This document shows positions 7,429 through 11,034 of a DNA stretch of 37,615 nucleotides, piece by piece. Below the pieces are notes generated by a model. That model was given only the letters and a program-made list of their open reading frames with translations. It was not told the origin of the DNA and searched no databases. The number at the start of each line of letters is the position of its first letter. The stretch's first letter is position 1. The position numbers and the translations under genes were made by a program. The DNA is from Syntrophobacter sp. SbD2 (GTDB lineage: Bacteria > Desulfobacterota > Binatia > UBA9968): assembly GCA_945889495.1 (NCBI GenBank), contig CAMDBU010000048.1, positions 1 through 37,615 of the forward strand, given 5' to 3'.

Positions 7429-7569
7429 TACGAGCAGCCAACTTTTCCCGTTAGTGGGCGAATTTTTACACCCCATTCGCGCGACCGATCTGGAATTAAT
7501 CGGCCCATTTGCTATTGGGTGCTGGAGTTGGTCATAACATTGGCAGAAAACTTCGGAAGGAGAGATGCG

Positions 7570-8025
7570 ATGATGGTGAAGAAATTTCTAACCCTGACGG
7601 CGGTCGCGGGTGGGCTCGTCTGGTTGAGCGCCTCTGGCGCCATGGCGCAGAACGAGATCGAGGGACGGCAAAAACTGATGAAAGGTTTTAGCGCCGCGAC
7701 CAAGGAAGTGAAGGCGGCGGTGGAGAAGAAAGACTACGCGACGGTGGCCGTCAAAGTAAAAGACATCGCTGATAGCTTGGACATGGCCGCTTTCGCGAAA
7801 AATTGGCCCCATAACAGCACCGACGCCAAGTCCAGGGCCAAACCGGAAGTATGGCAGAAGTGGAACGACTTCATGCTGACGGCCTGGGATGGACAGCAAC
7901 GTGCGTTATCCCTGGTGGACGCGGCCAAATCCAAAAACGACGCTAAAGTGGCGGAGGCCTATAAAGCTTTCGGTCCGGTCTGCGTGGACTGCCACAAGTC
8001 ATTTCGAGCTGAAGCGACGAAATAA
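7570..8025 (+). CDS. exported cytochrome c'-like haem protein
   Basis: A 151-residue protein with a signal peptide (MMVKKFLTLTAVAGG..., cleavage near AMAQ), a four-helix type of composition and one haem motif, CVDCH, close to the C-terminus (KAFGPVCVDCHKSFR). C-terminal placement of CXXCH and the total length fit class II cytochromes (cytochrome c' / c556). These are periplasmic and act in electron transfer or NO/redox handling. The start at 7570 is chosen because AAGGAG ends about 8 bp upstream; an in-frame codon at 7519 lies before the ribosome site. It is a single-gene unit closed by a strong hairpin. Confidence 0.85.
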   Translation: MMVKKFLTLTAVAGGLVWLSASGAMAQNEIEGRQKLMKGFSAATKEVKAAVEKKDYATVAVKVKDIADSLDMAAFAKNWPHNSTDAKSRAKPEVWQKWNDFMLTAWDGQQRALSLVDAAKSKNDAKVAEAYKAFGPVCVDCHKSFRAEATK

Positions 8026-8208: not shown

Positions 8209-9006
8209 TCAGGAGTTCGGCGATTCTCTGATCAATTGGCTGGTGAACTGGCGGGTAAACTCTACTAACTCTCCGGCAGCGAGATCGGAGATCACCCATA
8301 GCCGCATGCCGTCCAGTTGCCACTGGACGAGATTATAGCCATTAGCATTCGATTGACTCGGTGCGCGGTTGGCTTGGCCGGGGTTGGGCCAAACGAAAAG
8401 ATTGATGACATGCTTTCGACGCCCGAAGACGATAACCGGTACAGTGCGGCCATCGACAAAATCCAAGCGTCCACCTTGCAAGTCAAAACCCTGCGCGGAC
8501 AGATCGATGACCGGTGGGGCAAAGTTCAATTTGCCATGGAACCAAGGCTTGACGGTGTGACGATCCGCCGAGGCGACATCGAACGGTTGTTGACTCAAGG
8601 TCGAGCGGATATGGCTCGACAAAATCGCCTTGGCCAACTCCGTCTCGGCGTTCTTTCCCGCGAAGTACCAGAGCGCCGCTCCCGCCAGCAGCAGAACCAT
8701 CAATGCCGCGCCGCCGGCGGGCAGCCATCCTGAGAAAAAATTTCGTCTCTGCGCCTGGCTGGCGTATCCCATGGCTGGCGCCGGCGCGGTGGCCGACCTG
8801 ACTCGATCGACCAGCGCGGTTTTGGCGCCATAGTAATGGGCCTGCTGTTTGACCTTGGCGGACAACGCGGCCAGCGCCGCCACTTCGCGGGCGCAGTCGG
8901 CGCATTGGCGCAGATGTTTCTCCACCGCCAAGCTTTCGCTGACGCTCAGTTCGTTGTCGAGATATGCCGAAGCGAGCTCTCTCGATGGCTGGCAATCGTC
9001 GGTCAT
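8209..9006 (-). CDS. zinc-binding transmembrane anti-sigma factor
   Basis: A 265-residue single-pass membrane protein. The cytosolic N-terminus has the ZAS zinc motif H-x3-C-x2-C (H31, C35, C38) within SVSESLAVEKHLRQCADC, as in RsrA/RsiW/ChrR-type anti-sigma factors that bind and silence ECF sigma factors. A membrane span lies at about 96-116, followed by a 150-residue outer domain (VPVIVFGRRKHVINLFVWP, LVQWQLDGMRLWVISDL). ATG 9006 overlaps the sigma stop codon as ATGA and puts the zinc motif at the usual distance; an upstream in-frame codon at 9027 is less likely. The overlap implies coupled synthesis with the sigma factor. Confidence 0.9.
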   Translation of the reverse strand: MTDDCQPSRELASAYLDNELSVSESLAVEKHLRQCADCAREVAALAALSAKVKQQAHYYGAKTALVDRVRSATAPAPAMGYASQAQRRNFFSGWLPAGGAALMVLLLAGAALWYFAGKNAETELAKAILSSHIRSTLSQQPFDVASADRHTVKPWFHGKLNFAPPVIDLSAQGFDLQGGRLDFVDGRTVPVIVFGRRKHVINLFVWPNPGQANRAPSQSNANGYNLVQWQLDGMRLWVISDLAAGELVEFTRQFTSQLIRESPNS

Positions 9007-9557
9007 TTGATTTTCTGCTCCGCACACTGCAAGCGCTGCAGTAGCATTTTGCGCCCGCGGGCGATGCGCGACATCACCGTGCCGATGGGAACCCCGGCGA
9101 TCGCCGCGATCTGTTTGTAGGACATATCCTCTAATTCCCGCAGGATGATCGCCTCGCGAAATTCTTCTGGCAAGCTGGCGATCGCCGCGTTCAACCGCGC
9201 CGCGTCGTCGAGCCGCGTCAATAAGACTTCGGGATCGGTGGAATTTATTCCCGCGGCGCCGGAGCTATCTTCGACGCCGGCCGAATACTGGGCTTCGTCA
9301 AATTCACCGACGTTGCCGGTGGCATTTTTCGTCCGTAGCCAGCTGTAACAACGATTTCTGACGATGGTGAGCAGCCAGGCGCGGCAATCGCCGCCGCGAA
9401 AGCCTGCGAAAAAGCGAAAAGCGCGCAAATAGGCATCCTGGACGATGTCCTCGGCGTCGTGATCGTCGTGCACTAGCCAGCGGGCCAAATTATGGGCGGC
9501 GGAAAGATGCGGCAACGCCGCTTCCTGAAACCGTTTGTCCTTGTCGTCCTGATTCAC
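9003..9557 (-). CDS. ECF-family RNA polymerase sigma factor
   Basis: A 184-residue sigma factor with only regions 2 and 4. Region 2 is HNLARWLVHDDHDAEDIVQD...FRGGDCRAWLLTIVRNRCYSWLR. Region 4 is LPEEFREAIILRELEDMSYKQIAAIAG followed by the recognition helix VPIGTVMSRIARGR. The start is GTG 9557. It is cotranscribed with the overlapping anti-sigma gene and faces the metallophosphoesterase/cupredoxin pair. The two divergent promoter elements match each other, so it probably activates its own operon and the facing one. Confidence 0.95.
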   Translation of the reverse strand: MNQDDKDKRFQEAALPHLSAAHNLARWLVHDDHDAEDIVQDAYLRAFRFFAGFRGGDCRAWLLTIVRNRCYSWLRTKNATGNVGEFDEAQYSAGVEDSSGAAGINSTDPEVLLTRLDDAARLNAAIASLPEEFREAIILRELEDMSYKQIAAIAGVPIGTVMSRIARGRKMLLQRLQCAEQKIK

Positions 9558-9585: not shown

Positions 9586-9613
9586 AAGACCCGGCAACAG
9601 CCGAGTTTATTCC
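9586..9613 (-). promoter_or_regulatory. predicted ECF promoter of the sigma/anti-sigma operon
   Basis: On the minus strand, GGAATAAAC (9605-9613), 14 bases, then GTCTT (9586-9590). It lies about 29 bp before the sigma GTG start. Both boxes and the spacer length are identical in the facing promoter at 9699-9726. Confidence 0.75.
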
Positions 9614-9698
9614 CATCGCTTCGGCGATACTCTTATCGCGCTTCGACCCAGTTCGATAGCCGGTGCAATCGACGAACAAAAACTTCTCACCGCTTTCA

Positions 9699-9726
9699 GG
9701 AATAAACTTTGGCGCTCAGGAGTCTT
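9699..9726 (+). promoter_or_regulatory. predicted ECF promoter of the metallophosphoesterase operon
   Basis: GGAATAAAC (9699-9707), 14 bases, then GTCTT (9722-9726). It is 40 bp upstream of the ATG at 9767. The spacer differs from that of the opposite promoter, so the match is not a simple duplication. Confidence 0.75.
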
Positions 9727-9766: not shown

Positions 9767-10657
9767 ATGACCATGATCGATCGACGGGATTTTTTGAAAC
9801 TGGCCGGGCTGGCTGGGGTGACATTTGTCGCGGGGACCGGTTGCGCGGCGACCGGCATGGGTTCGTCATCGGATGAATTTCACTTTGTCCAGTTGTCCGA
9901 CACCCATTGGGGCTTTACTGGTGACGCGGCCAATCCCGATGCCGCGGGCACGTTGCAAAAGGCGGTGGCGGCGGTCAACAGCCTCGTCGAACAGCCGGAC
10001 TTCGTAGTCTTCACCGGCGACCTGACCCATAACACCGACGACCCAAAAGAGCGGCGCCGCCGGCTGGCGCAGTTCAAAGAGATCGTCAGCCAACTCAAAG
10101 TCAAAAATGTGCGCTTCATGCCCGGCGAGCATGACGGTTCGCTCGACAAGAGCGCGGCCTACCAGGAACTGTTTGGCGCGACCCATTACACCTTCAACCA
10201 CAAGGGGGTTCACTTCATCGCCCTCGACAATGTCTCAGACCCAAGGGGGCGGCTCGGGGAGGAGCAGCTTCAATGGTTGCAAGCGGATGTGAAGCAACAA
10301 AAAACCGACACGCAGATTATCGTGCTGACCCATCGCCCGTTATTCGATCTCTATCCGCAGTGGGATTGGGCCACTGGCGATGGCAAGCAGGCGGTGGATA
10401 TTCTTTTGCAACATCCCAAGGTGTCGGTGTTCTACGGGCACATTCATCAGGAACATCATTTCAAGACCGGCCATATCGACCATCACGCGTCGAAGTCGTT
10501 GATCTTCGCCCTGCCCGCGCCGGGTTCGGTGCCGAAACGGGCCGCGATCAATTGGAATCCCGCCATGCCCTACGACGGCCTTGGGTTTCGCGAAGTCGAA
10601 TTCGACAAGAGCTACGCCAATATTGAAATCAAAGAATACCCGGTCAAGCGAGGTTGA
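9767..10657 (+). CDS. Tat-exported calcineurin-like metallophosphoesterase
   Basis: A 296-residue protein. The N-terminus carries a twin-arginine signal, DRRDFLKLAGLAGVTFVAG. The five blocks of the calcineurin-like metal centre follow in order: LSDTHWGF (D-x-H), FTGDLTHN (GD), PGEHDG (in place of GNHD, so one metal ligand Asn is Glu), LTHRPLF, and YGHIHQEH (GH-x-H). It should act outside the inner membrane on a phosphoester that the sequence does not reveal. The start at 9767 is chosen for AGAGGAG 9 bp upstream and because it places the twin arginine near the N-terminus. The stop overlaps the cupredoxin start. Confidence 0.9.
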   Translation: MTMIDRRDFLKLAGLAGVTFVAGTGCAATGMGSSSDEFHFVQLSDTHWGFTGDAANPDAAGTLQKAVAAVNSLVEQPDFVVFTGDLTHNTDDPKERRRRLAQFKEIVSQLKVKNVRFMPGEHDGSLDKSAAYQELFGATHYTFNHKGVHFIALDNVSDPRGRLGEEQLQWLQADVKQQKTDTQIIVLTHRPLFDLYPQWDWATGDGKQAVDILLQHPKVSVFYGHIHQEHHFKTGHIDHHASKSLIFALPAPGSVPKRAAINWNPAMPYDGLGFREVEFDKSYANIEIKEYPVKRG

Positions 10658-11034
10658 TGATGCTGCGGATGATTTTAGCCTACTGCGTGACCACGGCGGT
10701 GCTCGCCATCTTTGTCTACATGGGACTGACCGAGTATAGCCTGCGCGCCGCCGAGTCGGGCGAGCGGGTGATCAAAATCACCGCCCATAAGTTTGACTAC
10801 ACGCCCAATGAGATCCGTTTGAAGAAAGACGAGACGGTGGTTTTGGAATTCACCTCCAGCGACGTCGACCATGGCTTCAACGTGCCTGAACTTGGGTTGC
10901 GCGCTGACGTTTTACCCGGCAAGACAACGCGGATACGTTTTACCGCACTCAAAGCGGGCAAGTTTGAAGTTCATTGCGACAATTTCTGCGGTGTGAACCA
11001 TGAGGAGATGGGCGGCATGGTGGTCGTGGAATAG
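10657..11034 (+). CDS. membrane-anchored cupredoxin with CuA-like site
   Basis: A 125-residue protein with one N-terminal membrane anchor or uncleaved signal (about 5-25) and a cupredoxin fold related to cytochrome oxidase subunit II. All CuA-type ligands are visible: H72 in VDHGF, then C107-x3-C111-x3-H115-x2-M118 in CDNFCGVNHEEM. The backbone-ligand position between the cysteines is Asn instead of the Glu of COX2. No oxidase subunit I or haem genes are adjacent, so it is probably a free electron carrier or copper-binding protein. ATG 10657 overlaps the previous stop (TGATG); ATG 10660 is equally possible. It is coexpressed with the phosphoesterase. Confidence 0.85.
   Translation: MMLRMILAYCVTTAVLAIFVYMGLTEYSLRAAESGERVIKITAHKFDYTPNEIRLKKDETVVLEFTSSDVDHGFNVPELGLRADVLPGKTTRIRFTALKAGKFEVHCDNFCGVNHEEMGGMVVVE

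Follow-up and report, generated by a model that had tools for sequence, protein, structure and literature searches.

The region between an ECF sigma factor gene and a divergently oriented metallophosphoesterase gene of Syntrophobacter sp. SbD2 carries the same pair of short sequence boxes twice, once on each strand, raising the question of which regulator reads these two copies and which genes it would control. In the window (the whole stretch of DNA analysed here, 37,615 nucleotides in length), the features that bear on this question are as follows, with coordinates given along the window:

8209 to 9027, minus strand: anti-sigma factor gene, 272 aa, with Pfam zf-HC2, a long helix and a C-terminal domain; overlaps the sigma gene
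9003 to 9557, minus strand: ECF sigma factor gene, 184 aa, GTG start, with Pfam Sigma70_r2 and Sigma70_r4_2
9223 to 9251, minus strand: third, near-matching site, GGAATAAAT-N15-GTCTT, inside the sigma gene and directed towards the anti-sigma gene
9586 to 9613, minus strand: predicted ECF promoter of the sigma/anti-sigma operon, exact GGAATAAAC-N14-GTCTT, core GGGAATAAA and GGGTCTT, matrix score 21.7 against a threshold of 8.6
9699 to 9726, plus strand: predicted ECF promoter of the phosphoesterase/cupredoxin operon, exact GGAATAAAC-N14-GTCTT, matrix score 20.6
9767 to 10657, plus strand: metallophosphoesterase gene with a twin-arginine signal, 296 aa, with Pfam Metallophos and NCBIfam TAT_signal_seq
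10654 to 11034, plus strand: CuA-type cupredoxin gene, 126 aa, with Pfam Cupredoxin_1 and COX2; 4-base overlap with the phosphoesterase gene

The paired sites and their conservation

The initial annotation described identical boxes and an identical 14-base spacer length on opposite strands, with differing spacers, one copy lying ahead of the ECF sigma gene and the other ahead of the Tat phosphoesterase operon, and the sequence bears this out: the minus-strand copy (9613–9586) reads GGAATAAAC-TCGGCTGTTGCCGG-GTCTT, and the plus-strand copy (9699–9726) reads GGAATAAAC-TTTGGCGCTCAGGA-GTCTT. The copies point away from each other with 85 bases separating them, with 28 bases between the minus-strand GTCTT and the sigma GTG at 9557, and 40 bases between the plus-strand GTCTT and the phosphoesterase ATG at 9767, which is preceded by AGAGGAG. 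Both positions fit promoters ahead of their genes, and both sites have the layout of ECF-type promoters (a GGAA-type −35 and a GT-containing −10 element ~16–17 bases apart, ahead of a gene), with GGAATA and GT 17 bases apart in each. The third site, inside the sigma gene, is probably there by chance, as a similar internal GGAATAAAT-N15-GTCTT site was present in only one of 44 sigma stretches, the window's own. An internal promoter of that kind has been suggested for ecfR6 of S. meliloti (PMC6180224; here and below, statements from the literature follow the available portions of the cited articles).

That the motif is conserved in orthologous loci, a point on which the initial annotation had staked its prediction, is evident from a de novo search, from a trained matrix, and from matrices carried across groups of genomes. 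Each unit head was represented by the 320 bases before and the 30 bases after the matched start. After removal of loci that duplicated one another, and with the window left out, the regions were searched for gapped words of 6 bases, a gap of 14–21, and 4 bases. The commonest word, GGAATA-N15-CGGT, occurred in 39 of 84 regions, whereas each of ten shuffled sets reached no more than 4 or 5; on the opposite strand of these 84 regions the count was 32, as expected given that divergent regions overlap. A two-block matrix was trained without the window, with regions of ≤120 bases (L056) and the CUP region of L061 dropped and regions of L136 (two) and L137 (one) added, and with its threshold of 8.6 passed by 2% of shuffled regions (highest shuffle 16.8). 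Sites above threshold were found in 79 of 87 unit-head regions, of which the 85 from outside the window had also served for training, and in 2 of 134 coding-stretch controls of the module. Trained on the beta set, the matrix recovered 18/21 class regions, 10/13 others, and both window regions; trained on the class set, 47/51 beta regions, 9/13 others, and again both window regions; and trained on the nine sites of the remaining set, 43/51 beta regions, only 13/21 class regions, and both in the window.

The consensus from these sites is GGGAATAAA, 17 bases from GGAATA to GT, and CGGT(C 0.50, A 0.40, T 0.09)T; of the 79 accepted sites, 75 have a gap of exactly 17 and four a gap of 16. Relatives conserve GGGAATAAA and CGGT[C/A]T, the distance from GGAATA to GT being 17 bases, which corrects the box limits first proposed: the ninth base (C) of the first box lies outside the conserved part, being C in 0.23 of sites. 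As that C is not conserved in relatives, the identity of the two window copies at this base is probably chance.

Where the sigma and phosphoesterase units each have their own head, both sites were found in 29 of 31 loci, and the −10 triplet (GTC, GTA or GTT) agrees between the paired sites in 22 of these 29, with 11.6 expected from the table margins; shared descent contributes to this agreement, and the locus counts given here are inflated by it, related loci being treated as independent. In the one-piece operons (L033, L034, L039, L041, L042, and L089) a site precedes the first gene, pointing along the genes. No site was found in 8 of the 87 head regions (L038, L043, L054, L055, L057, the MPE region of L046, L093, and the MPE region of L097); the L046 MPE, L093 and L097 MPE regions lack it despite a sigma gene close by, with L093 having a good site 501 bases upstream.

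The genes behind the sites also recur together, with the ECF sigma factor, zinc-finger anti-sigma factor, Tat metallophosphoesterase, and CuA-type cupredoxin all present in 36 of 55 non-duplicate loci, window included, several of the 19 incomplete loci being short stretches or loci retrieved only for their sigma gene. Genes in this comparison are defined by blast matches, and gene starts are therefore approximate. The complete loci are divergent as in the window (27), or have the order phosphoesterase-cupredoxin-sigma-antisigma (5) or sigma-antisigma-phosphoesterase-cupredoxin (4), and the motif precedes the first gene in all three gene orders. The full set of four is present in named genomes of beta- and deltaproteobacteria or myxobacteria, and Gemmatirosa has three of the genes; the scan for the phosphoesterase yielded 11 named loci. 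The phosphoesterase was found at E ≤ 1e-40 in 15 of 148 genomes of SbD2's class, SbD2 included, and at E ≤ 1e-80 in 22 of 399 genomes belonging to the order of the Rhodoferax MAG G152 (which holds L037). In a sample of 395 genomes of the phylum, where scoring covered up to 8 candidates in each, SbD2 alone had the sigma factor at E ≤ 1e-35. From the phylum and class counts, the module is patchy and no core feature of the group.

No further conserved neighbour family was clear in most of the 15 stretches compared (14 loci and part of the window), and the larger extra neighbour clusters resemble shadow frames of these four genes. Several loci show variations around the module: a second cupredoxin-like frame was noted by eye near it in three deltaproteobacterial loci (L040:3714-4148, L041:3096-3518, and L042:3320-3694), and sister sigma/anti-sigma pairs with the same promoter type have a neighbour that by eye is beta-propeller-like in place of the phosphoesterase (L006:2669-3492 and L007:2109-3422). 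On a Rhizobium leguminosarum plasmid, the match to the sigma gene falls into two pieces that lie in different frames (L137:4424-4929), its main part being 47% identical; the promoter motif is present upstream.

Which sigma factor probably reads the sites

We consider it very probable that both sites are divergent promoters read by RNA polymerase with the stress-type ECF sigma factor encoded at 9003–9557 on the minus strand, driving both operons. The prediction of the sigma factor's target in the initial annotation finds its support in the conservation described above and in loci where sigma and phosphoesterase genes lie apart. Eleven phosphoesterase loci have no close sigma homologue in their stretch, with matches weaker than 1e-25 ignored here and in the motif comparison; six have the site and five do not. 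In five of those with the site, a close sigma homologue lies elsewhere in the genome (5/5: L040/G155, L053/G145, L058/G103, L060/G091, and L064/G085), the sixth, L045, being a plasmid record that was set aside from this count. Four genomes without the site have no sigma match at E ≤ 1e-25 (G153, G047, G054, and G144), and the remaining locus without it, L043/G158, has one 38% sigma match at 2.7e-26. The site is thus found in 5/5 genomes with the sigma gene elsewhere, compared with 0/4 without a close sigma gene (0/5 including the doubtful L043/G158), as counted in draft genomes. At L055 and L057 the site is missing even with a distant ECF gene close by (33% and 30% identity, respectively); both loci are counted as lacking the sigma gene because these matches are weaker than 1e-25. 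Across these genome sequences, the promoter site follows the presence of the sigma gene.

The sites may instead be real promoters read by another ECF sigma factor of the cell, or by several, which we regard as improbable. The SbD2 genome has seven matches to the window sigma factor at E ≤ 0.001, and cross-activation of promoters has been described among the S. meliloti ECF26 sigma factors (PMC6180224, PMC10880074). Upstream of more distant ECF genes a partly similar site is sometimes found: from 45 loci given, 44 were scanned (L152 being too short), and 6 of 34 weaker ECF relatives (<120 bits) have a site above the threshold, in every case with GTT as the −10 element, so that the site is not wholly specific. 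However, the other 28 have no site, with several carrying GGGAACTT...GTTTTA upstream instead, compared with 7 of 10 ECF genes above 120 bits passing the threshold (only 4/7 new loci, as L139, L143, and L144 are the same places as L061, L059, and L063). Furthermore, G047, G054, and G144 lack the site despite 21 to 38 first-look ECF candidates, none a close homologue, and in two of the three a distant ECF gene lies near the phosphoesterase gene (L055 and L057).

It is slightly less probable still that the two copies are not promoters but inverted operators bound by a DNA-binding regulator distinct from the sigma factor. The window copies face apart across their 85 bases, as operators can; however, the one-piece operons bear a single front copy pointing along the genes, the gap hardly varies among the accepted sites (17 in all but the four with 16), the presence of the site tracks that of the sigma gene from genome to genome, and the same boxes occur in mapped sigma-dependent promoters of S. 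meliloti (PMC6180224). A chance repeat is scarcely credible, with two matches to GGAATAAAC-N12..17-GTCTT in the window against a mean of 0.01 over 100 shuffles, none of which held two, and with the motif conserved in other loci.

With the sigma factor of this locus as the preferred reader of both promoters, the extent of its regulon becomes of interest. The full-genome query proposed in the initial annotation returns two exact GGAATAAAC-N14-GTCTT sites in the 5.64 Mb draft genome of SbD2, both at this locus, and the reversed pattern gives no matches in the whole genome. The relaxed pattern GGAATA-N16..18-GTCTT has six sites, three at this locus; the three elsewhere (L047, L048, and L050) were rejected as targets as they lie inside mechanical open frames. 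GGAATA-N17-GTMT has seven sites, two at this locus, with one of the other five being the L050 site and the remaining four lying on contigs C76, C116, C192, and C210. Among the exact and the GGAATA-N16..18-GTCTT matches, no convincing further target was found, and the regulon therefore looks local. The predicted regulon is probably the two operons of this locus, although weak or unusual sites may exist elsewhere. In two other genomes, close divergent GGAATA-N17-GTCT pairs lie away from the module (G565:C17:6312-6401 and G822:C20:78049-78127), perhaps belonging to another sigma circuit.

The encoded proteins and the proposed circuit

The sigma factor has Pfam PF04542 and PF08281 within 184 residues, i.e. 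Sigma70 regions 2 and 4 only, and scores 93.8 bits against TIGR02937 (cut-off 42.9). Its best NCBIfam model is NF009185/PRK12533 at 225.7 bits, which falls below the curated cut-off of 248, so that NCBI would not name it PRK12533. The same model is best for six of seven other ECF proteins scanned, the exception being RpoE6, where one of the six (L137) matches over 39 residues only, its given frame breaking off; the Caballeronia protein of L136 alone among the seven exceeds the cut-off (271.4).

The anti-sigma factor contains the zinc-binding class I motif Hx3Cx2C as HLRQCADC, and this motif is present in at least 29 of 43 homologous anti-sigma stretches, a lower bound since some stretches start past this part. 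The predicted structure (mean pLDDT 81, pTM 0.57) has a single long helix at residues 105–144, which is taken as the membrane segment. Residues 8–83 of the model align to ChrR (Z 8.0, rmsd 7.8), residues 11–84 to RsiW (Z 6.6, rmsd 5.8), and residues 144–270 to C-terminal MucB/RseB (Z 8.3–8.6, rmsd 3.4–3.9, 95–98 residues). RseB and MucB are separate proteins, whereas the similar fold predicted here would sit inside the anti-sigma factor itself. This likeness is a lead only, as the C-terminal part has a different protein, TM1622 (1vr8, Z 9.1), as its top structural match, Foldseek by itself found nothing for the anti-sigma model below E 0.001, and a Z of ~8 can reflect a common arrangement; the second-look fold listing, with Z of 8 to 9, bears on the families listed there. 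On the strength of this model, the membrane anti-sigma factor may sense a periplasmic signal. A cytochrome c' gene (7519–8025, plus strand) faces the anti-sigma gene, and among the compared loci matched the window's own copies only.

Calcineurin-like phosphoesterases usually carry a GNHD motif with a metal-binding Asn. The window phosphoesterase has GEHD in place of this canonical motif; in the family comparison, 42 of 50 have GEHD (41 by script, and L038 by eye) and seven GEND, the last, L079, being a fragment. L105 has a TAA within its phosphoesterase match. The predicted phosphoesterase structure (mean pLDDT 70) is nearest to GpdQ (3d03, Foldseek E 9.1e-11) and Rv0805 (2hyo, E 1.4e-9), the latter also matching weakly by sequence (E 2.8e-4); the window protein is ~20% identical to these enzymes and differs in carrying a Tat signal. 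The closest solved relatives of the cupredoxin are the CuA domains of cytochrome oxidase subunit II, and the CuA ligand set Cx3Cx3Hx2M is present as CDNFCGVNHEEM, and in 41 of 45 cupredoxin stretches, window included, where two of the four misses (L040 and L064) come from truncated stretches and two (L095 and L097) from stretches that are not cut short. A single reading frame of a Fibrobacteres MAG (L038:4989-6173) encodes a fusion of the phosphoesterase with the CuA cupredoxin, suggesting that these proteins act together; this genome has no close sigma homologue, and the fused gene has no promoter motif.

In the proposed circuit, the minus-strand promoter would drive the sigma gene and the membrane anti-sigma gene, giving positive autoregulation with the inhibitor made alongside, and the plus-strand promoter would drive the genes of the metallophosphoesterase, exported by the Tat route, and of the CuA-type cupredoxin. 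In the resting state, the sigma factor would be kept at the membrane by the zinc-finger anti-sigma factor until a periplasmic signal, through the anti-sigma C-terminal domain, released it, and the freed sigma factor would switch on both operons. More tentatively, the locus may be the control and effector unit of an undescribed, patchy periplasmic stress system, with ChrR/RsiW-like sigma-holding and RseB/MucB-like sensor domains in one membrane protein, and a dedicated sigma factor controlling a CuA protein and, working together with it, a Tat phosphoesterase whose metal site is altered (GE[H/N]D); we consider this whole picture possible but rather doubtful.

The target of the sigma factor is predictable because the arrangement recurs in distantly related bacteria. 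The pair of repeats thereby yields a prediction, with a consensus, of which sigma factor reads which promoters, and the regulon is probably one conserved four-gene unit. The promoter and sigma factor could serve as a reporter for the signal of this uncharacterised phosphoesterase/copper-protein system.

Comparison with ECF26 circuits

The kind of circuit proposed here is well known. The published ECF26 promoter consensus has GGAATA as the −35 and GT as the −10 element, with which the sites of the window and its relatives agree, and the promoter listed for the S. meliloti SMc01418-rpoE1 operon contains GGAATAAAT-N14-GTCTT, so that the mapped RpoE1 promoter has the same 9-14-5 layout as the window sites (PMC6180224). 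Sulfite-oxidation promoters have GGAAT and CGTC as −35 and −10 elements (PMC6527743), and autoregulation, a small regulon, a sulfite dehydrogenase, and pseudoazurin have been described for the S. meliloti circuit (PMC3511301). The promoter is thus of a known type, and the proposed circuit would work in the manner of ECF26 circuits. The anti-sigma gene behind the sigma gene, with one predicted transmembrane segment and a predicted periplasmic C-terminus, is likewise in the ECF26 style, traits that are not unique to ECF26.

At the level of the proteins, the one ECF26 sigma factor compared was RpoE6 of pSymA; the closest promoter is that of RpoE1. The frame was taken as RpoE6 because the promoter letters of a published table (GCCGGAATAACACAGG...) adjoin it (PMC6180224). 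RpoE6 is 33% identical to the window sigma factor, with PRK12511 and PRK12546 as its best NCBIfam models compared with PRK12533 for the window family, and the window anti-sigma factor has no match at E ≤ 1 in the pSymA stretch with rpoE6 and its neighbours. ECF26 is not mentioned in PMC8103513 and PMC7406223. No paper on a unit of an ECF sigma factor, a metallophosphoesterase, and a cupredoxin (or oxidase subunit II) was found among the open-access papers searched, a set without most subscription papers and the ECF classification supplements, and the only match there on an ECF sigma factor, a metallophosphoesterase, and a regulon, as far as its available text goes, concerns Bacteroides.

The cargo also differs. 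The ECF26 sigma factor RpoE4 of Sinorhizobium meliloti controls a sulfite oxidase, a cytochrome c, and pseudoazurin, which is exported redox cargo (PMC6180224, PMC3511301), whereas the cargo of the window locus is a metallophosphoesterase and a CuA-type protein, unlike that of the S. meliloti ECF26 systems.
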